Virus record (IMG/VR): IMGVR_UViG_3300021960_000054
Span: 1 to 64,000 of that record
DNA length: 64,000 nt
Source: a virus
Strand: one strand, 5' to 3'
Part shown: piece after piece, positions 3,133-59,273 of the stretch
How the letters are laid out: each line of letters begins with the position of its first letter
Position numbering within the stretch: the first letter of the stretch is position 1
Program-made: the position numbers and the translations under genes
The notes under the pieces: generated by a model
The model's database searches: none
What the model was told of the DNA's origin: nothing
What the model saw: the letters and a program-made list of their open reading frames with translations, nothing else

Positions 3133-3768
3133 TCATATGCTACTATTTATACGACTTTCATCGTATTTCTGTTGTACAGTATACACTATTGCCTTGTATT
3201 TGTCAACATCAAAATCAAGAAAAGGTCGGTATTTAATTAACTTTCGCCGTTCTTCTTTCCAGAAGAAATCATCACCGAGCATCTTATCCCAATATGACAA
3301 GTAGTTGTTAATAGCATCTAGTATCAACATCGTTTCAATTTTTACATCTCCACGACTATACATCTGTAGTAATATAGGATGTTGTTCATCCTTTACCACA
3401 AAACATTTGTCGAACTTGTTGAAGTCTTCCTCTTCAAGTTCAGAACAAATTTCATCAAGGTCGTCTTTGAGATTTTTAGTTAAACTCTGTAGACGACCTC
3501 TCCAATTATTATATACTTGTAGTGCTTCTTCATAGATAAAAGCACCACCCCATCGATTACCATCGACATGATTGGCAATCAAAAACTTAGGTAGTTCAGT
3601 CTCATTAAACTCTTTTGCTAGACGTTGAAAATTAAACTGGTCAGACCTTTTGTAAAAAGTTTCATCTTTTGTCTTGACTGCGCCTCTAGTTTTTGTTATA
3701 TCATATCTATCTGTTGTAAAATGTAACTTAAAAGCAAGATAGATGTTGAATGCTTCAAATTCATTCAT
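3133..3768 (-). CDS. 59: gp59-like helicase loader
   Basis: About 211 residues from ATG 3768; T4 gp59 has 217. The ATG overlaps the preceding stop (ATGA), which decides between this start and one 24 nt upstream. The opening NEFEAFNIYLAFKLHF, KRSDQFNFQRLAKEF and the later LDAINNYLSYWDKML resemble the T4 protein in order and spacing. gp59 loads the gp41 helicase onto gp32-coated forks. Position next to gp32, with gp33 nearby, repeats the T4 order 33-59-32, though here two oxygenase genes separate 33 and 59. Confidence 0.85.
   Translation of the reverse strand: MNEFEAFNIYLAFKLHFTTDRYDITKTRGAVKTKDETFYKRSDQFNFQRLAKEFNETELPKFLIANHVDGNRWGGAFIYEEALQVYNNWRGRLQSLTKNLKDDLDEICSELEEEDFNKFDKCFVVKDEQHPILLQMYSRGDVKIETMLILDAINNYLSYWDKMLGDDFFWKEERRKLIKYRPFLDFDVDKYKAIVYTVQQKYDESRINSSI
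3144..3151 (-). promoter_or_regulatory. T4-type late promoter box for gp32
   Basis: TATAAATAG on the minus strand, overlapping the last codons of gp59 and 74 bp upstream of the gp32 start. Confidence 0.7.
3178..3206 (-). promoter_or_regulatory. Sigma70-type promoter inside gp59 driving gp32
   Basis: The minus strand shows TTGACA (3206-3201), a 17-nt spacer and TATACT (3183-3178), within the 3' part of gp59 and about 110 bp before gp32. Together with the late box this gives gp32 both early and late expression. Confidence 0.65.
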
Positions 3769-5951: not shown

Positions 5952-5999
5952 ACTATTTCTCCTTGTGTGTATGTGTGTAAAATGTAGGGTGAAGCAATT

Positions 6000-6350
6000 G
6001 CTTCTTCTGTTTCCAGGCGCCCCTACGACACCCAGAAGATTATGCCGCTAGGCGAATATCTTCATATGCAATGTTATCGTTTGCATTTACTTTGTTTTGA
6101 CTTATTAGGCGGTCATCCCACAGTTCTACTCTTTCCTATTTACGTCAGTCGATCCTATTTCGCCCCCATCATAAGCACACTTCCGTGCCATATCTCTACC
6201 GAGATATCCAGGTTGTGGTTTCACCTTAATAAACTTTGAGACCCAATTTGCAAATGCTTCTAGCATGTTTACCTCTAGTGTGTTTATGGTGGAGGCGGTG
6301 GGTATCGCACCCACGTCCTGCCCGTCATTCAGATTGTATCAACAAACTGT
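6000..6350 (-). ncRNA. ssrA: Circularly permuted (two-piece) tmRNA
   Basis: In transcript order the acceptor piece comes first (about 6350-6287): T-arm GTGGG-TGCGATA-CCCAC, then CGCCTCC-A-CCA ending at 6287. After a ~119-nt intervening segment the coding piece begins at 6167 with GGGGGCG, which pairs with CGCCTCC over 7 bp (one G-U), then the tmRNA-type D-loop GGATCGAC. Upstream of the tag is a GTGGGATGACCGCC knot-like region. The resume codon GCA is at 6084-6082, and the tag reads ANDNIAYEDIRLAA with TAA at 6042-6040. A hairpin (CTTCTG/CAGAAG) closes the 3' part. The LAA end suits ClpXP. Permuted order and an ANDN tag are typical of alphaproteobacteria. tmRNA with SmpB rescues stalled ribosomes; no smpB is seen here. 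Confidence 0.92.
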
Positions 6351-6356
6351 ACATTA

Positions 6357-6385
6357 TATATAACATGCTTTGATGTAAATGTCAA
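6357..6385 (-). promoter_or_regulatory. Sigma70-type promoter of the tmRNA
   Basis: TTGACA (6385-6380), 17 nt, then TATATA (6362-6357) on the minus strand. The -35 overlaps the stop of the gene at 6382. Transcription would start near 6350, just before the tmRNA acceptor piece. Confidence 0.7.
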
Positions 6386-6747
6386 GTAGTAATTCCATTA
6401 TTACCAAAAATACTGTTATACTCTAATTCACCTCCATCTGATATAACGCAAGTTACATTTGCTGATGGAAGAAATTCTAATATTGTGACTGTACCTTTGT
6501 CTTTGTTAACTAGAACTTCGACAATACTAGGTAGTGTAGTTTTGTATCTAATCATTCCAACTTCGCCGTACTCATTCGCAAATTCTGCTTTTACTTCGTT
6601 GTATGGTTTCTTAGTACAGACAACAGGTTTTTGTCCTTGTCTATATTCATGTTCTGAATTATCTTGAGCAAATGTGATGCTGGATAAAAATGTTAGACAC
6701 CATACCAATACAATAACATCAAATACCCATGACTTTCTGATATTCAT
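6382..6747 (-). CDS. Secreted hypothetical protein
   Basis: 121 residues with a clear signal peptide (charged MNIRKSW, hydrophobic FDVIVLVWCLTFLSSITF, cleavage near TFA-QDN). The mature part has two cysteines (VVCTKKP, VTCVIS) and a beta-rich pattern, so it is probably a small periplasmic or surface domain with one disulfide. It overlaps the upstream nuclease gene by 29 nt. No family recognised. Confidence 0.75.
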   Translation of the reverse strand: MNIRKSWVFDVIVLVWCLTFLSSITFAQDNSEHEYRQGQKPVVCTKKPYNEVKAEFANEYGEVGMIRYKTTLPSIVEVLVNKDKGTVTILEFLPSANVTCVISDGGELEYNSIFGNNGITT

Positions 6748-10108: not shown

Positions 10109-11122
10109 TTAACTAAATGGACATTTACCTCCTGATTTTTTCTGAAATATTTTTCCCAACATTCTATAACCTTTTGATGACCCCCAATTAGCATTAATTG
10201 CGTTTGTTTGAACTCTCTCTTGATAGTTGTCATTATAGTCAATATCACGAACCTCATAAGGCAATTGATGTTTAGGAAAAATATTAAATAAACATAATGG
10301 TTCTTTAAACTGAAGATTTATTTTTGCTCCTTTATGCTTTATCACCATAAACATATTAAAAGTATTATAATAATCTGTTTGAATAATTCCAGGAAGCACT
10401 TCGAAAGGATTCCAACGATAAGGAAGTGGCATCACCATAGTACACATACCAGGAGGAGTTTTAATTCTCCATGGAGATGAAACTTTAATTACCGCTTTGG
10501 AATATTCCTCTGGTAAATCATTAACCATAGTTGAGTATTGATGAGGAGGATGTGTAGTAAGAGTCCACTGGTTGCGTACTTCATTTAATTGATAATGCTT
10601 CCAGTCTCTAACTTCGTCTACATTAAATCCTATACCATACAAATATCGCAACCATTCTGCGCTTGATGATGGATCATCATTCAGATTTTTTAGAGACAGA
10701 TGATCCGCTCCATCTTTACCATCGGCATATGCACTCAGTATCGATGATGTAATTGATGCGGCAGTGGTACCATCTAAACTAGTTTCAATTAAGGCGGCGC
10801 CCCAAAAAGGAACAACATACCCATGTGTTAATATGTCTTGCATACCAGGACACGTTTTAATAGTCTCTCCTGTAGTTCTCCACTCAACGGGATTACCAGT
10901 AGGTAAAAGTTTATTGTGATTACTTTGTGCAGTACGATGATGCATGGGTTCATGCGTTTTAGGTAAATCTCTATACCACTGAGGTATTGCTTTAGAAGCA
11001 GGCACAATAGGTGCCCAATCTGCAAGACCTTCAACCGCAGAATAAAATTCAATCTTTGCGTTTGGATATGACTTCTTTCGCAACCAAGTACCAAAGTCAT
11101 ACATTACATCGCGCACACTCAT
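10109..11122 (-). CDS. Conserved phage protein (DUF6065-like), long paralog
   Basis: 337 residues. Landmarks are FYSAVEGL near the start, PQWYRDLPKTHE, TIKTCPGMQDILTHGYVVPF, SSPWRIKTPPGMCTMVMPLP, PGIIQTDYYNTFNMFMVI and FKEPLCLFNIFPK. I recall a family named DUF6065 with such motifs but cannot confirm it. Shorter relatives with the same motif order occur at 23103 and probably 35727. No catalytic pattern is evident; the beta-rich core suggests a cupin-like or binding fold. ATGA overlap with the upstream gene. Confidence 0.75.
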   Translation of the reverse strand: MSVRDVMYDFGTWLRKKSYPNAKIEFYSAVEGLADWAPIVPASKAIPQWYRDLPKTHEPMHHRTAQSNHNKLLPTGNPVEWRTTGETIKTCPGMQDILTHGYVVPFWGAALIETSLDGTTAASITSSILSAYADGKDGADHLSLKNLNDDPSSSAEWLRYLYGIGFNVDEVRDWKHYQLNEVRNQWTLTTHPPHQYSTMVNDLPEEYSKAVIKVSSPWRIKTPPGMCTMVMPLPYRWNPFEVLPGIIQTDYYNTFNMFMVIKHKGAKINLQFKEPLCLFNIFPKHQLPYEVRDIDYNDNYQERVQTNAINANWGSSKGYRMLGKIFQKKSGGKCPFS

Positions 11123-15570: not shown

Positions 15571-16111
15571 TCGCATTGGATATACGGGTTCTCCTGGTTC
15601 ATGGGTGGGGGGAAATCAATATGAAGTCTACAAATCAGATACGATTATTAACAATCAAGAACTTCTAATAGAACATCTACTAGAATTTCATCATAATACA
15701 GAGTATAGAACAAGTAATTTTGATACTTATAATATATTCACAGAATGGACTACCGATACAATGTATGATTTGTTTACAAATGTTAAAGATGTGGTTCGCA
15801 CTCATTTACCAAAGGGAAGACTTTGGTTACAAGCATGGGTAAATGTACACAAACAGAATGAGTGTCTAGATTGGCATCATCATCATTTCCCTTTTCATGG
15901 ATACATATCAATCGATCCAAAGAATACAACTACAGAGTTTGCAAAATGGAAAGTAAAGAATAGCGTAGGAAATATATATTTTGGACACGGCGGAAAAGCA
16001 AACGAGCATAAGGTTACAGTTAATGAACCATACGATGACTATCGCATTACAATAGGATTCGATGTGCAGTCGGTTGCAACTCAAGGAAGAAATAAATTTA
16101 TACCGATATGA
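15563..16111 (+). CDS. 2OG-Fe(II) oxygenase-like protein
   Basis: 182 residues. WLQAWVNVHKQNECLDWHHH followed by GYISIDPKNTTTEF is the first oxygenase half; the second half VGNIYFGHGGKANEHKV and DDYRITIGFDV gives the distal His and the 2OG-type Arg. It belongs to the set of small phage oxygenase-like proteins scattered through the window. It overlaps thyX and is followed 13 nt later by another member. Confidence 0.75.
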   Translation: MINRIGYTGSPGSWVGGNQYEVYKSDTIINNQELLIEHLLEFHHNTEYRTSNFDTYNIFTEWTTDTMYDLFTNVKDVVRTHLPKGRLWLQAWVNVHKQNECLDWHHHHFPFHGYISIDPKNTTTEFAKWKVKNSVGNIYFGHGGKANEHKVTVNEPYDDYRITIGFDVQSVATQGRNKFIPI

Positions 16112-22519: not shown

Positions 22520-23101
22520 ATGAAAGAAGTAAACATACAACATGCGTTTGCAGACTTCTTCGTGCATGAAGAAATTTTTATTAACAATGACGATATCTGT
22601 AAATTCATCTACAAGCAAAAAGAAAAGAGTGAAGGTCCTAGTATCTGGTTTGATGGAACAGAACCTGAACTGGCACAGTTCTATGGTGTTGTGCAAACAT
22701 ATCTAGATGCAATGCATACTAAGTTATCTTTGTATCCTAAACTAAAGCAAAGACTATTTCAAGCATGGGCAAACATCAATATGAATGAATTTATTTCTGT
22801 TCCTCATAGTCACAGTGAAAGAGCATATGCAGTTATCTCTGGAGTATATTATCCAAAGGCAGATGAGAACTGTCATCCAATTGAGTTTGCATCTAACAAT
22901 CGTTCAGTTGAGCATGTGATTTTTCCTGAGGTTGTAGATAAAGAGAATGAATTCAATTGCGGTCACAAACGCATTGTACCTAAGACCGGAACTCTTTTGT
23001 TATTTCCTTCTTGGTTAATACACTATGTTGTACCGGCGGGTACTGCAACAGAAGATAGAATTTCATTAGCATTCAATGCTGACATGGTACCTAAAGATTG
23101 A
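22520..23101 (+). CDS. 2OG-Fe(II) oxygenase-like protein
   Basis: 193 residues behind GAAGGAGTGAT. Iron site ISVPHSHSERAYAVISGVYY, distal His GTLLLFPSWLIHYVVPAGT and Arg in EDRISLAFNAD: a complete 2OG-FeII_Oxy_5 pattern. A longer-than-usual insert with paired cysteines (NCHPIEF, FNCGHKR) separates the halves. Ends 1 nt before the DUF6065-like gene. Confidence 0.87.
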   Translation: MKEVNIQHAFADFFVHEEIFINNDDICKFIYKQKEKSEGPSIWFDGTEPELAQFYGVVQTYLDAMHTKLSLYPKLKQRLFQAWANINMNEFISVPHSHSERAYAVISGVYYPKADENCHPIEFASNNRSVEHVIFPEVVDKENEFNCGHKRIVPKTGTLLLFPSWLIHYVVPAGTATEDRISLAFNADMVPKD

Positions 23102-23102
23102 T

Positions 23103-23777
23103 ATGAACATAGAATTCAAATCATTAGACAAAGATAATTTATATCCTCCTGTGCCTGCGACACAAGTTATTCCGGAGAGATTTAAAAAGATACCGAATAC
23201 AAATACAGAATATGATTTAATGACTGTGAAGAATTGTATGCCTATGATAGAACATCTATCCAATGGTTATGCAATCAGACTGAGACATAGTATCGACATA
23301 AAGCAAAAGTTTCAACCTTATGCAGAAGGGTTCGATGAGCGAAATACATTTACTGTTGGTCAAGTAGGATTAGGTAATCATCCTCATGAGCAATTACCTA
23401 TAACTATAAACGGTAAGAGAAATGATTATATAAAACTTCCTAATCTATGGACTATCAAAACTCCAGATGGATACTCTTCTATGTTCTATTCTGTTTTTGG
23501 TGAAGAGAGATTTAAAATATTCAGTGGTGTTGTTGCCACAGACAAGTATACTCTTCCTGTATTGTTTCCTGGAGTTATTACAACCACAGAAGATTTTACA
23601 ATTGAAGCAGGGACAGCAATTGCTATTGTATTTCCTTTCAAGAGAGATAGTTGGACATCAACCACTACTGAATGGAGTGTCGATAATAAGATACAAGAGA
23701 TGGAAGATATGAGAACCTTTAATGAAAATGCACATCATTATAAAAATTCAGTGCATGTAAAAAGTAAATTTAATTAA
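23103..23777 (+). CDS. Conserved phage protein (DUF6065-like), short paralog
   Basis: 224 residues from ATG 23103. It shares ordered motifs with the 337-residue protein at 10109: PERFKKIPN versus PQWYRDLPK, CMPMIEHLSNGYAIRL versus CPGMQDILTHGYVVPF, NLWTIKTPDGYSSMFYSVFG versus SPWRIKTPPGMCTMVMPLP, and GVVATDKYTLPVLFPGVI versus GIIQTDYYNTFNMFMVIKH. The family function is unknown. Both copies lie beside other marine-phage accessory genes. Confidence 0.75.
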   Translation: MNIEFKSLDKDNLYPPVPATQVIPERFKKIPNTNTEYDLMTVKNCMPMIEHLSNGYAIRLRHSIDIKQKFQPYAEGFDERNTFTVGQVGLGNHPHEQLPITINGKRNDYIKLPNLWTIKTPDGYSSMFYSVFGEERFKIFSGVVATDKYTLPVLFPGVITTTEDFTIEAGTAIAIVFPFKRDSWTSTTTEWSVDNKIQEMEDMRTFNENAHHYKNSVHVKSKFN

Positions 23778-26459: not shown

Positions 26460-26676
26460 GAAATTAGAATTGAAGTTTGCTGATACATTCTTTGATAGTC
26501 TAGATGACAGTGATATGACTGAAGAAGAAAAGCAAGAACTCATCAACGAGATTGGTCTCATGTTCGAAAGCGGTGAACTCATGTCTAGCGCACATGAACT
26601 TGAAGAAGATGAGATTCCAGATGAAGTTCGTGACGCATATGAAGAGTATGTACAGAACAATAAGTCATGGCACTAA
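26449..26676 (+). CDS. Small acidic early protein
   Basis: 75 residues, about one third Asp/Glu (DSLDDSDMTEEEKQELINEI, HELEEDEIPDEVRDAYEEYV), predicted helical. Acidic early phage proteins can mimic DNA or bind host enzymes; no evidence here beyond composition. Confidence 0.72.
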   Translation: MTTKKLELKFADTFFDSLDDSDMTEEEKQELINEIGLMFESGELMSSAHELEEDEIPDEVRDAYEEYVQNNKSWH

Positions 26677-26677
26677 C

Positions 26678-26863
26678 ATGAGCGTAACACTTGCTAAAGT
26701 GAGAGTGTATGATGAAGATACATTTCATAGAACAGGCGAAACAAAGATAGTGTACATGTACGTTAATCATGAAGGACTACAAATCAGCGATGCATTCGAT
26801 ACAGTGAATGATGCTCGTTTGTGGTATTCAGAAATGATGAAAGACTATCCGTATAGTAAATGA
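26678..26863 (+). CDS. Hypothetical early protein
   Basis: 61 residues from ATG 26678, 1 nt after the previous stop. Strand-rich: SVTLAKVRVYDEDTFHRTGE, TKIVYMYVNHEG, then a helix ending in DYPYSK. Function unknown. Confidence 0.65.
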   Translation: MSVTLAKVRVYDEDTFHRTGETKIVYMYVNHEGLQISDAFDTVNDARLWYSEMMKDYPYSK

Positions 26864-26879
26864 AGAAGAGCGAAGTTCA

Positions 26880-27233
26880 ATGTCTACTGCATTAGTCAAA
26901 GTAGAAAAACATCCAATCACAAATTATCTAGGACCGCAGTTCGTACTTGTCGATGAGAAAATTGTATTCGATACGCGAGAAGCAGTCAAGACACATCTAC
27001 CTGAAATCTGCGGTAGAGTGTTAGCAAGAGCATGGATAGACAAAGCATTCTATGCACAACTAGAAAAGAACACACTAGAAACATTCAATACTCTAGGTGT
27101 ATACTTACCTTCTGATATGTTTATCGAATTCAAGAAAGGTAAGACAAGAGCATCTATCATCGTCTACGAACAAACAGGAAGATTAAAAGTCCGCGTCTGT
27201 TCTTTAGAGATGACGTTAATAGCAAGAAGATAG
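26880..27233 (+). CDS. Hypothetical early protein
   Basis: 117 residues. FVLVDEKIVFDTREAVKTHL, VLARAWIDKAFYAQLEKNTL, and a strand-rich basic C-terminal half (RASIIVYEQTGRLKVRVCSL). Function unknown. Confidence 0.7.
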   Translation: MSTALVKVEKHPITNYLGPQFVLVDEKIVFDTREAVKTHLPEICGRVLARAWIDKAFYAQLEKNTLETFNTLGVYLPSDMFIEFKKGKTRASIIVYEQTGRLKVRVCSLEMTLIARR

Positions 27234-27252
27234 AACTAAGAAAGCAGAACAA

Positions 27253-27663
27253 ATGAAACAACATCCCAGAGCAAATCTAACAGGCGGTTATGTAAAAGCA
27301 GGATACGAGAATGTAAAGATAAGTGAAGTGAAAGATTACTTTCTCATTCATGGTAAGAACAATTCTAATCCTGATGTATACAGAAGTCTTGCAGAAGTGG
27401 AACAGTATATCAACAGTCTTACTTCAGAGAAACATAAGTCACGCATAGTGATTGTGCCTTTCTCTGTTAGTGAAGAAACTTTCGACAGAGAGATATATGA
27501 TATTATACACTTTGTATATGATAGATTACAACCTGAAGAATACACTAAGTGGAAGATGGGTGAATCCTCAATCTTACATTGGGGTATTATTCAACGCTAT
27601 AAAGAACGCTATTACAGTGACAGAGAAGAAGCACTGAACCGCCGTGCGATGCGCCGACTTTAA
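27253..27663 (+). CDS. Hypothetical early protein
   Basis: 136 residues, last of the plus-strand run. Contains VKAGYENVKISEVKDYFLIH, SRIVIVPFSVSEETFDREIY and a basic C-terminus (YYSDREEALNRRAMRRL). Function unknown. No clear plus-strand terminator follows; a short AT hairpin is present. Confidence 0.7.
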   Translation: MKQHPRANLTGGYVKAGYENVKISEVKDYFLIHGKNNSNPDVYRSLAEVEQYINSLTSEKHKSRIVIVPFSVSEETFDREIYDIIHFVYDRLQPEEYTKWKMGESSILHWGIIQRYKERYYSDREEALNRRAMRRL

Positions 27664-27838
27664 AAACGTAATTTTTACTCCGGAAAAATTTTTGGAAACA
27701 GCATAGGGGGTAGTGCGTTTTCAGTTTTCGTGCAGTCGAATGTTTGCCGTACTCTGAGTCCGTTGGAACGTGCCGGCGCTAAGAGCGAGACTTAACCCCT
27801 CCGCACTCACAAAAATATTGCATATGTAGGGGGGTGTA
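27664..27838 (-). ncRNA. Candidate structured noncoding RNA
   Basis: No ORF fits here, yet a strong minus-strand sigma70 promoter (27845-27873) points straight into it, right after a terminator. The stretch 27710-27840 is visibly richer in G and C than its surroundings. On the minus strand AGTGCG (near 27808) can pair with CGCACT (near 27713) to close a domain of about 85 nt that holds a CGCT-CTT-AGCG hairpin. Two C-rich strings (ACCCCCCTAC near 27835 and TACCCCCTATG near 27707) could compete for one GAGGGG. No known RNA family recognised. Confidence 0.5.
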
Positions 27839-27844
27839 CCCTTC

Positions 27845-27873
27845 AGTATATCACAGTGAGTAACAGTTGTCAA
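27845..27873 (-). promoter_or_regulatory. Sigma70-type promoter without a downstream gene
   Basis: TTGACA (27873-27868), 17 nt, TATACT (27850-27845) on the minus strand. The transcript would begin near 27838 and run against the end of the plus-strand early operon. Confidence 0.8.
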
Positions 27874-27882
27874 GTAAAAAAT

Positions 27883-27935
27883 AAAAAAAAGCGACACCCT
27901 ACAACCCTTTGTCAGTAAGGGTTACAGGGCATCGC
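27883..27935 (-). terminator. Strong intrinsic terminator
   Basis: On the minus strand a 19-bp stem (27935-27917 with 27909-27891, including four G-U pairs) carries a 7-nt loop and is followed by TTTTTTTTATTTTTT. It ends the small minus-strand operon from 28547 and lies 10 nt before the next -35 box. Confidence 0.92.
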
Positions 27936-27979
27936 CGAGACAACGTAGGGAGAAAGGGAGAGAAAAACCCTACTAGTCT

Positions 27980-28228
27980 CTAACTTGCAGTCGCGTCTAC
28001 TCGTTCTACGCCACACAGTTTGTAACCGGTGACCTTGCGACCGTCTTTGAGTGGGATCACACCATAGGGTGTCTTTGTTTTAATTTCCCACATATACGTT
28101 GAGATGCGGTACATGTTCACGCCTGCTATCTCACACTGTTGTTTGAACTCATCTATAGTAGCAGTATAGTTATCTGCTTCTTTCAGTACGTTCAGTACTT
28201 TTTCATATTGACCCATTGCTTTTGCCAT
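27980..28228 (-). CDS. Small hypothetical protein
   Basis: 82 residues. YEKVLNVLKEADNYTATIDE, EIAGVNMYRISTYMWEIKTK and VIPLKDGRKVTGYKL resemble a winged-helix-type layout (helix, helix, strand pair) but I cannot name it. Starts 3 nt after the previous stop. Confidence 0.7.
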   Translation of the reverse strand: MAKAMGQYEKVLNVLKEADNYTATIDEFKQQCEIAGVNMYRISTYMWEIKTKTPYGVIPLKDGRKVTGYKLCGVERVDATAS

Positions 28229-28578: not shown

Positions 28579-28607
28579 AGTATATCACAGTCTTATACAG
28601 ATGTCAA
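28579..28607 (-). promoter_or_regulatory. Sigma70-type early promoter
   Basis: TTGACA (28607-28602), 17 nt, TATACT (28584-28579) on the minus strand, 32 nt before ATG 28547. Confidence 0.8.
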
Positions 28608-55466: not shown

Positions 55467-58035
55467 CAGATAGTCCTAACTGCTTCGCATAGTAAGGCAT
55501 ACGGCATGCCCAATATCCAGGTTTAGTTTTATCTTTCTTTGTGCTACACTGATGTCTTGCGGCGAATGACTTTCTCGCTTCAGGATCATTCAGTTTTATT
55601 TTCAGACCGGTGGTGTCACCCCACGAAACTTTTTTAATGTTTCCACTTGATGGGTCTTTTACATATACATAATACTTTTTAGGTCCACCCGCTTTAGGTT
55701 TGTTTAACTCAGGTTGCTCTTCTTCCATCATAGGACAATCAAGAGGCACATGTTGTCCTTCATATAATGCATGTGAACCAATGTCGGATTCAAGCAACTC
55801 AATGTCGAAACTATCTAAGAGGTCTCGGTTAAGGGTTTTCTTCCACTCATTAAATTGCTCATAGTACATCTCAGAACCAATGCGATATTCATTAGTCTCA
55901 ATCAACTGTGAGATTGGTTCATAACTTTCTTTTTTAGATTTCATTGCTTGAAGGCGCTTCATTTCTAATTTACGCATAGTTGGAAGTAAACGAATAGACA
56001 ATCTATCAATAACTTTCTTCTTACTCGCAATGAACTTTTCAATTTGTTGCTTTTGCGCCATACCTAATGTGCTATATGGTTTACCTTTAGTAAATCTCTT
56101 ACGCAACTTATTTCTTGCATGTCGCCTTGCTCTCTTCTTTAACTTTTCAGGAGAAGACATACGCTTCAATGCAATCATTCGTTTACGTTGAATACGCTTA
56201 GACATTCGGCGCATCATCATTGACCGTTTCATACGTTGCGCTGGTGTTAATACTTCATCCATATTAATCCACTGATAGTCAGCGGCAAGCATTTCGTCAT
56301 CATCAGGAATCTCATTAGAGTCCACATCAACGCCATCATCTTCATCTTGGTCATTGGGAATTCCATCACCATCTTTATCTGGATATACATCTGCAAAATC
56401 TTCGATTTCGTCATAAGCATCGAATAAATCTGCGATTTGCTTTTCTAAACTCTCATCATCAACTTCATCAGGATCAGGAATATCAAGTTCTTTATCTTCA
56501 TCACTCTCTTCTAAAAATAAGTCAATGTTCCACTCTTCGCGCAACTCATCTTCTTCGTAGTGAGATAAACGACTATCATGCTCAGTAACATCTTTCGCCA
56601 TTGTGCGATACCACAATTTAATTTGCGGGTCTAATAGTCTCTTACCAACAGTAAATTTTCTAGCATCTCTGAACATCTTTTGAAGACGCTGTTGAACTTC
56701 TTGCTTGTTTGAACCAGCAACTAGCATCTTACCGACACCTTCAACTTCGACTTCAAAAGCAACTTCTGCTTGCTCTGTAAGACCTAAGTGTTCTTTGAAT
56801 GATTTGCGGGTTTTCTCTACTTCTTTAGATACTTTATCTAAGACTTCTTTTGCATTCTTCCCATCAATACCTAAAATAGGTGCTTCACCATCGCCCAAAA
56901 TCCAGTCTCCTGATGGGTCGTCTGGTGTTGTTCCTTGGACTGCTCCGCCTTGTTCTGGATAGTCTGCAATTGCTGGTACTGTTTTATGTGATGCTTCGCC
57001 GAACATCGCTTTGAACTTCTTAGTGTGCGTTGAAGGTTTTGTCTTTGCTGTCGCATCTCCAGGTGCTGGTTTGTAAGCACTTGGGTCGTCATCTGATTTT
57101 TCTGCGCCCTTCTTGAAATGTGCATCTCTGGTAGATTTGGTAGACTTGGACTTGAGTCCTGCAAAGTATTTTGCTGGTTGTGTACCGTCTTTATCGGCGA
57201 TATCTTTATCTTGTCTAACTTCGGTGTCATCGTCTTTCGCTGATTTCTTTTCTGTAAGGTCGGATATCCACTTTGTATGTACATTACCATCTGCTCCTTT
57301 GCAGTACAGGAAGTTTGTTCCTTGTTCTACGATTTCAAATTCTTCATTTAAATTTAAGTCTACTACAATATCACCAACATTAAAAATGTCGCCTACTAGA
57401 TATGCTTCTCTGAATGCAATACGCTCAAATTCCACATCTTCTTTAATTGAAAATACTTTACGAATTTCGTTATAAATTGCTTTCTTGTCTGCATCAGATA
57501 GTTTAGATGCTAATGCACCAGCAAACTTCTTATAGTTACCTTGCTTCGCATAGTCGCGCAATAGAGTACCAGAGATACCCTCAACACCTTTTGCATTAGG
57601 GTCGCGCTTGCCTGCAGACTTTGATGAGATGGAATTAAAGTTAAATTCTTTTCCGTTGTATTTTTTGATGAGATTGACCATCTCACCTTCGCGGTCGTCA
57701 CCAAATACTAATGTGATATCTGTATAACCGTCCGCTTCTAATTCTTTTGCAATCTCAATGATTGTTCTTGCTCTAGATGATTTAACTGCAGAACCAAATG
57801 CCTTCTTTGCATACTTGACTTTATCTTTGTATGACAGAGGGTCTTTCTTATTGTTCTGAGTATGTGATAGATAAATTCGTGCGTCTGCACCAGATGCTTT
57901 CGCTTCTTTTGTTACTGCATTCGCGAGTTTTTCATGTCCTGCTGTAGGAGGATTCATGCGACCAAAAGAAAATACAACTTTCTTTTCTTTTGCTTCCTTC
58001 AGTTTTTGCTGAAGGTCTGTAAACTTTAATGTCAT
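55444..58035 (-). CDS. Large nucleotidyltransferase-like virion protein
   Basis: 863 residues from ATG 58035 (ATGA overlap with the upstream gene). Residues ~1-180: a cytidylyltransferase-like fold, with FSFGRMNPPTAGHEKLANAV (TxGH variant), VVFGDDREGEMVNLIKKY and GISGTLLRDYAKQGNYKKF. The middle is acidic and repeat-poor (DEVDDESLEKQIADLFDAYD) with a calcium-binding-like DKDGDGIPNDQDEDDGVD, then a very basic stretch (QRMKRSMMMRRMSKRIQRKR). The C-terminal ~85 residues hold an ARHQCSTKKDKTKPGYWACR motif (DUF5872-like, from memory). A composite protein, likely packaged in the head. Confidence 0.82.
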   Translation of the reverse strand: MTLKFTDLQQKLKEAKEKKVVFSFGRMNPPTAGHEKLANAVTKEAKASGADARIYLSHTQNNKKDPLSYKDKVKYAKKAFGSAVKSSRARTIIEIAKELEADGYTDITLVFGDDREGEMVNLIKKYNGKEFNFNSISSKSAGKRDPNAKGVEGISGTLLRDYAKQGNYKKFAGALASKLSDADKKAIYNEIRKVFSIKEDVEFERIAFREAYLVGDIFNVGDIVVDLNLNEEFEIVEQGTNFLYCKGADGNVHTKWISDLTEKKSAKDDDTEVRQDKDIADKDGTQPAKYFAGLKSKSTKSTRDAHFKKGAEKSDDDPSAYKPAPGDATAKTKPSTHTKKFKAMFGEASHKTVPAIADYPEQGGAVQGTTPDDPSGDWILGDGEAPILGIDGKNAKEVLDKVSKEVEKTRKSFKEHLGLTEQAEVAFEVEVEGVGKMLVAGSNKQEVQQRLQKMFRDARKFTVGKRLLDPQIKLWYRTMAKDVTEHDSRLSHYEEDELREEWNIDLFLEESDEDKELDIPDPDEVDDESLEKQIADLFDAYDEIEDFADVYPDKDGDGIPNDQDEDDGVDVDSNEIPDDDEMLAADYQWINMDEVLTPAQRMKRSMMMRRMSKRIQRKRMIALKRMSSPEKLKKRARRHARNKLRKRFTKGKPYSTLGMAQKQQIEKFIASKKKVIDRLSIRLLPTMRKLEMKRLQAMKSKKESYEPISQLIETNEYRIGSEMYYEQFNEWKKTLNRDLLDSFDIELLESDIGSHALYEGQHVPLDCPMMEEEQPELNKPKAGGPKKYYVYVKDPSSGNIKKVSWGDTTGLKIKLNDPEARKSFAARHQCSTKKDKTKPGYWACRMPYYAKQLGLSGGGNYFW

Positions 58036-59273
58036 TTTTTCACCCAATTTTTTGCGGCAGTGAAGTTAGCACGACTGAACTCTAAACGGTTCACTAGTTT
58101 AACTGCATTACCTTTAATTCTGTCAACTGCCACAAAACCTTCTGGTTCGGTGGTCTTTAGTCCATTATCTGTTCTCAGAAAAGTACCGATTGATTTTACT
58201 TTCGATAGTTTCTGCACCAATACATTTTTAGCGTCCATTATATAAGTGTATAACAAAGTTGCGTTTTGCAAGTCTTTCTCTTGCTGATGAATTTTTTTCA
58301 ATCCTTCAAGTTTAATCTCATTATATTTTTGTTTACCTGCATCAGACTTCACACTTTCAATCTTCTTGTCTAACTTAGTAGTCCAATAGTTCTTAAAGTC
58401 AGAGACCATTTGATTACTATCAGGCAAGTCATCTGCACCCCTAAAATAAGAGTTTAGATGAACTTTAAAATTAGTTTCGATAGCAAATTGGTTCTTCTCA
58501 TCAAAGTTCGCAGACATCTTATCCAAGTAGGATGAGACATTAGGTAGCAAACTTTCAATCCGTTCGATATAACCATTGAGATTTTCGGTTTCATCTTTAG
58601 TCATTGTGACTGTGCCTGAAACATCTTTATATGAGGCATCATCGAACCAGACCGTCTTCTGCTTTCTCAACTTACTTATATTTATATTAAACGATGCTTT
58701 CATCGTTTCTAGTGTCTTACCTTTATATTCTGTATGAAAGATAATACCCATCTTTGTACTTTGTACGAACTTACCAAGAGGTCCACTCTTAGGAATAGCA
58801 TAGACAATAGTGTTAGGTTGAAACGTGATATAATCTTCACCATCAATAGTCTTAGTTGACAAATCAGATTTAGTGTACATCATGTCACCTTGAATGACAC
58901 CTTTGATACCTAACTTAGATAGTTCTTTTAATGCAACTTCTAATTTCTCTACTAGTCCACCTGTGTGGTTTTTCTTAATATCTGCAGATGTGTAGTTTAG
59001 TTTAGGGTTTTTATTAAAGACTGATTTAGTAGCAACAAAGAACTTACCATTCTCAGGATTAACACCACAGAAAATAGCAGGTGCGCCATCCCACTTTGTG
59101 GTGATGTTAACACCGGTGCGAACACTTGAACTAAGCATGTCACGAACACCTTTAAGGAATTCGACTGCGTTCTTTGCGCCATCGGCACCGTCTGTGATAA
59201 TAGTTTCCTCAATATGCGTCAAGTGCGTATTGCGGTTCTCAGTTAACTCTGTATGTGCTTTAAATCTAATCAT
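58032..59273 (-). CDS. Ligase-like nucleotidyltransferase-fold protein
   Basis: 413 residues. TTKWDGAPAIFCGVNPENGK carries a KxDG motif (Lys near 60) as in DNA/RNA ligases and capping enzymes. GVIQGDMMYT resembles motif III, FQPNTIVYAIP a later strand, and PEGFVAVDRIKGNAVKLVNR gives an EGxV motif IV and a KLV motif V. I recall the family as uncharacterised in marine T4-like phages; the ligase-fold reading is mine. ATG is 6 nt after a -10 box. Next to the 867-residue gene. Confidence 0.7.
   Translation of the reverse strand: MIRFKAHTELTENRNTHLTHIEETIITDGADGAKNAVEFLKGVRDMLSSSVRTGVNITTKWDGAPAIFCGVNPENGKFFVATKSVFNKNPKLNYTSADIKKNHTGGLVEKLEVALKELSKLGIKGVIQGDMMYTKSDLSTKTIDGEDYITFQPNTIVYAIPKSGPLGKFVQSTKMGIIFHTEYKGKTLETMKASFNINISKLRKQKTVWFDDASYKDVSGTVTMTKDETENLNGYIERIESLLPNVSSYLDKMSANFDEKNQFAIETNFKVHLNSYFRGADDLPDSNQMVSDFKNYWTTKLDKKIESVKSDAGKQKYNEIKLEGLKKIHQQEKDLQNATLLYTYIMDAKNVLVQKLSKVKSIGTFLRTDNGLKTTEPEGFVAVDRIKGNAVKLVNRLEFSRANFTAAKNWVKK

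Follow-up and report, generated by a model that had tools for sequence, protein, structure and literature searches.

A conserved noncoding element of marine T4-like phages and its candidate small regulatory RNA

Some phages carry small RNAs (sRNAs) directed at host RNAs, as exemplified by PreS of lambda and VpdS of VP882 (reviewed in PMC12197685). On the bacterial side, GsrN is an sRNA of Caulobacter and related Alphaproteobacteria, reported in Caulobacter to recognise G-rich mRNA leaders through a 5' run of six C (PMC5869019). Transcription without a gene product is also found at the T4 replication origins oriF and oriG, which span ~100 bp and combine a middle promoter with an A+T-rich unwinding element, and where an R-loop primes replication (PMC3016281). 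The element described here, a predicted noncoding RNA at positions 27664-27838 (minus strand), lies in a 64,000-base stretch (hereafter the window) at the start of a virus record of 72,046 bases. The proteins encoded in the window include a UvsX-like recombinase, a DnaB-like helicase, a phage single-strand DNA-binding protein and ribonucleotide reductase, and the best matches of the protein encoded at 58032-59273 are to Pelagibacter phage HTVC008M, Melnitz-type methylophages and cyanophages. Gene content and best protein matches thus identify the source as a marine T4-like myovirus. The window also harbours four tRNAs and, at 5996-6389 (minus strand), a permuted tmRNA of the alphaproteobacterial type with the predicted tag ANDNIAYEDIRLAA; two-piece tmRNAs are already known in marine phages (PMC9004378).

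Relatives were found through the neighbouring 82-aa gene (27980-28228), which yielded four contigs, L088 to L091. Three of them (L088, L089 and L090) are near-identical, with 100% identity of the 82-aa protein and 84-89% identity of the surrounding DNA, and L091 is diverged (73% protein identity for the same neighbour). The element is present at the same place in all four; its comparison thus covers three lineages, with only three distinct sequences. Their alignment revealed conservation of TTGACAACTGTKACTMACTGTGMTATAMT and, where the RNA 5' end is predicted, of a C6 run and then TATGYAAT. Also conserved is a 3' block, AAAAATTTTTCCGGACAAAAAATTACG, with CCGGAGT in the window, whereas the middle is variable. 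The 5' block occupies 27817-27834 and starts with the C6 run (27829-27834), our proposed seed, which is present in all alleles. The 27-bp 3' block (AAAAATTTTTCCGGAGTAAAAATTACG, 27667-27693) is 93% identical to that of L091, and a block in the middle (TACGGCAAACAT, 27740-27751) is kept in L088 and altered in L091. In 1.8 Mb of fetched DNA, a profile of the element gave significant scores for the known element sequences only, and a sequence-only covariance model agrees with it. One more distant relative, identified in a viral scan by alignment of the neighbouring gene, is devoid of the element. No relatives were found with the plus-strand genes at 27253-27663 and 23076-23777 as queries.

Searches for known families gave no hint of the identity of the element. 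Rfam 15 at the gathering threshold returned no match for the gap in the window, L088 or L091, and relaxing the threshold brought up only a chance snoRNA-like match outside the gap; the scan for 6S, antisense or phage motifs that the initial annotation had proposed thus leaves the gap without a match. Similarly, blastn of the region against phages found nothing relevant, and the three matches to an exact 16-mer in viral contigs are all unrelated. A pattern combining the promoter and AAAAATTTTTCCGG had 62 matches in genome contigs, at a chance-like level, and in viral contigs its cyanophage matches belong to a separate element, for which the profile gave no match. We rejected AAAAATTTTTCCGG as a general T4-like motif, as its 3 occurrences in 1.09 Mb are all in the element. 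A host-derived RNA was also rejected: in 289 genomes sampled from a single bacterial class, a search with stricter filters and no positive control gave no match.

A strong minus-strand promoter following a strong terminator had been the starting point of the initial annotation, and both are indeed in place. The promoter (27845-27873, ACTGTKACTMACTGTGM) is a near-consensus, extended -10 sigma-70 promoter, TTGACA-17-TATACT with a TG before the -10 hexamer, and its conservation includes the spacer. It is located 16 bases after an intrinsic terminator (27890-27936, minus strand; a 20-pair stem and a T-run) that ends the upstream minus-strand operon and insulates the element; the terminator sequence in L088 is identical to that of the window. 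Strict consensus promoters are abundant in the 64-kb window (11 observed versus 0.04 expected), and nearly all the other strong ones are followed, after a short leader, by a gene with an ATG start, unlike the element promoter. Its spacer is conserved at 14 of 17 positions, the highest value among 544 window-L091 promoter pairs, and this conservation exceeds the need of a bare promoter.

Other features of these promoters deserve mention. Directly 5' of TTGACA, TGTGGATTTCYC is common to a family of early promoters (16793, 18342, 23838 and 38746 in the window; 13418, 16809, 18324 and 19037 in L091), of which it is likely an upstream recognition element; the element promoter does not have it. The spacer and -10 string CTGT-N6-CTGTG-ATATACTG is shared by two minus-strand promoters of the window, at 27845-27873 and 28579-28607, and may act as an operator for a single phage regulator. 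In L088, L089 and L090, two tandem near-consensus promoters precede the element (3713-3741 and 3776-3804 in L088), where the window has one.

Consistent with the initial annotation, no credible open reading frame was found in the 175-bp gap, either in the ORF list or in the sequence itself. The listed 58-aa ORF (27721-27897) begins upstream of the element promoter, and neither of the two mini-ORFs inside the gap, of 14 and 29 codons, has a Shine-Dalgarno sequence. A leader peptide in the 5' block was rejected, since in L088 a stop directly follows the ATG of the first mini-ORF and there is no ribosome-binding site. Transcription is predicted to start ~7 nt past the -10 hexamer. At the other end, no intrinsic terminator was found downstream of the element in the window and L088, and L091 has a candidate at 10728-10744.

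The composition of the gap is unusual, if not quite in the manner first described. Its GC content of 48% exceeds that of the operon to its left (~37%), as had been claimed, but the DNA to its right (27880-28149) is equally GC-rich. Two runs of at least five C together with one of at least four G in a 176-mer occurred in none of 2000 dinucleotide shuffles, which supports the C- and G-rich strings as such. By contrast, their reported competition for pairing is not a stable feature, as the strings change position in the relatives. In the window, the internal GGAGGGG (27796-27802) can pair with the 5' C6 or with the 3' CCCCC (27706-27710); in L088 a C-rich string replaces the former and GGGGG the latter.

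The description of the gap as structured could not be maintained. The minimum free energy of its RNA is -33.0 against a shuffle mean of -37.1 (z +1.04), and 173 of 200 shuffles reach the same or a lower energy; the corresponding z-scores are -1.29 for L088 and +0.74 for L091, and no exceptional folding was found in sliding windows of 60-150 nt on either strand inside the gap. As for the long-range stem, RNAalifold on the three distinct sequences showed a helix paired as GGGG:CCCC in the window and CCCC:GGGG in L088. This swap amounts to four consecutive compensatory pairs, a result obtained in 0 of 300 column shuffles and in ~2% of block shuffles. The remaining two sequence pairs show no compensatory signal, and L091 does not keep the helix. 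Some conserved pairing is thus seen in one relative and is absent from another, and the RNA structure evidence, drawn from two alleles only, is suggestive. The inverted repeat AATTTTT-7-AAAAATT within the 3' block is invariant among alleles and therefore uninformative on RNA pairing. The predicted probability that C6 is unpaired is 0.98 in L088, 0.77 in L091 and 0.10 in the window, where the internal G-string is predicted to mask it; there is no loop common to all alleles.

The genetic context of the element varies among lineages. The opposing gene of 136 aa in the window is replaced by different genes, of 68 aa in L088 and 79 aa in L091, and in the latter a canonical terminator separates it from the element. 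Because the element persists whichever gene faces it, it is a unit in its own right, and its survival of the gene turnover rules out that it is a conserved antisense RNA or belongs to the opposing operon as its 3' UTR. Its conserved part ends at the last stop codon of that operon (27663). The 3' block is also unlikely to terminate the opposing operon, as a normal terminator precedes the block in L091. Between L088 and the window, the flanks are 89-92% identical and the element only 65%. A mosaic block is apparent there (window ~26675-27842 versus L088 3800-6200), in which identity drops from ~90% to 65-68% and genes are swapped; one of its boundaries is the start of the noncoding element. Judging from these identities, the L088 counterpart of ~26675-27842 has been exchanged or has diverged.

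With both ends conserved and the neighbours changing, we therefore probably have a small regulatory RNA that has not been described before. Sequence comparison indicates that the gap is a real, conserved and previously undescribed noncoding element, and a regulatory RNA is its most likely nature. The candidate noncoding RNA of the initial annotation is upheld insofar as its promoter, 5' C-run and 3' block are conserved in three lineages beside changing genes, but not as a switch or an antisense RNA.

As to the type of RNA, we favour, with a confidence a little below even, an sRNA of the phage that is transcribed on its own, acts in trans through a C-rich 5' seed and resembles GsrN in its mode of action. 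The insulated promoter, 5' C-run, 3' tail, variable middle and lack of an ORF or a cis target fit such an sRNA, whose usual attributes are found here: a promoter of its own, no ORF, independence from neighbours and conservation. Host RNA polymerase with sigma-70 would transcribe the element soon after infection begins, giving an RNA of roughly 170-200 nt whose 5' C-rich seed might then pair in trans with G-rich mRNA leaders (Shine-Dalgarno regions), probably those of the host. A phage-internal target at 15604, the only complementary phage site, was rejected, being absent in the relatives. One may speculate that in the window allele GGAGGGG masks the seed or pairs with the 3' CCCCC, thereby tuning seed exposure. 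Points against an sRNA are the lack of a terminator in the window and L088, the folding no better than that of shuffles in the window and L091, and the predicted masking of C6 in the window. Most Hfq-type sRNAs have an intrinsic terminator.

Alternatively, the promoter might have no RNA function at all, serving as an insulator or in collision with the opposing operon, or being the relic of the leader of a lost gene. The convergent layout, the variable middle and the failure to find a terminator of the opposing operon in the window gap would agree with this. However, L091 has kept the element although its opposing operon is terminated before it, and a conserved 5' C-run and 3' block are not needed for collision and would not be expected in a relic; we consider this explanation rather unlikely. 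Less probable still is an origin akin to oriF and oriG, in which the promoter transcript would form an R-loop within an A+T-rich unwinding element, thereby priming the leading strand, with the conserved blocks as DNA rather than RNA signals. The locus resembles these origins in the use of a gene-less promoter and in its A/T-rich stretch, here the conserved 3' block ~150 bp downstream, all in a T4-like phage. Nevertheless, T4 origin promoters are of the MotA-dependent middle type, whereas the element has a sigma-70 promoter with a full TTGACA -35 hexamer, the promoter-adjacent stretch is GC-rich and the RNA start is C-rich rather than G-rich. Furthermore, R-loop formation and unwinding are sequence-independent in T4 and do not predict conserved blocks, and the sign change of the skew at this place is in the terminus direction and is explained by gene orientation.

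A cis-acting RNA is improbable, whether as a riboswitch or attenuator or as an antisense regulator acting on the plus-strand operon. The orientation against 27253-27663 and the competing C- and G-strings of the window would suit it. Nonetheless, conserved overlap with the opposing gene is absent across the three lineages, as that gene differs in each and is set apart by a terminator in L091. The earlier view that the gap lies antisense to the last part of a long early operon was thus not borne out, read-through alone being antisense to a neighbour that the relatives do not conserve. Nor is there a conserved gene downstream on the same strand, where the DNA consists of the tails of unrelated convergent genes, and there is therefore nothing for a switch to control. 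The switch reading further suffers from the shifting position of the competing strings, from GGGG:CCCC compensation in one relative only, from folding no better than that of shuffles in the window and L091, and from the absence of an Rfam match. Finally, an mRNA leader of an overlooked small protein with a non-standard start codon after the CCGGA motif is highly improbable: a similar A/T-CCGGA motif does precede an ATG in AG-345-P14 and cyanophage contigs, but ATG, GTG and TTG are all absent shortly after the motif in the element, and the frames after ATT vary in phase, length and sequence among the window, L088 and L091.

If the element does encode a trans-acting sRNA, a bolder and unlikely extension is that it represents a new RNA family of T4-like phages imitating C-rich bacterial sRNAs, which would hijack or sponge host post-transcriptional regulation through C6, with alleles masking the seed differently as the G-string flips. 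To our knowledge, sRNAs in lytic marine phages are poorly explored, and gaps like this one are passed over in annotation. As a short insulated unit with a clear candidate seed, the element can be searched for directly in metatranscriptomes. It bears on RNA-pairing host reprogramming versus promoter-sited replication origins in marine T4-like phages.

A parallel to the element came from a search combining the promoter and the 3' motif, which identified cyanomyovirus-like contigs where a small ORF is preceded by a promoter, a GC-rich leader and AAAAAATTTTTCCGGAAGT. Relatives of this leader are found in S-SM2 (L171:1450-1740), S-CAM22 (L172:1400-1640), Bellamy (L173:1400-1620) and P-TIM68 (L174:1400-1660), as well as in L100 (8242-8422), each before a small hypothetical ORF, and its core is mostly unannotated; an Rfam scan of the leader in L100, L106, L094 and L098 found no match. 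The strong promoter, the GC-rich leader of similar length and, in some contigs, a AAAAATTTTTCCGGA block on the 3' side are reminiscent of the element, but the cyanomyovirus leader runs into a small ORF and its conserved core is AACTACCCTAACCTACAGAGGTGACAA. As the element profile does not match these leaders, we treat them as parallels rather than as homologues.

GsrN and the element both have six consecutive C close to the 5' end, which is where GsrN is best conserved, and a proposed pairing with G-rich leaders. GsrN is a host gene product of ~106 nt with its own terminator and a 5' loop (PMC5869019), whereas the element is phage-borne, no conserved loop is predicted around its C6, and we found neither a terminator nor a sequence relation to GsrN; we do not claim membership of that family. 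PreS and VpdS belong to temperate phages, bind Hfq and were demonstrated by experiment, whereas the element is a prediction in a T4-like phage. What it would have in common with them is a noncoding transcript carried by a phage and, as predicted here, acting on host mRNAs.
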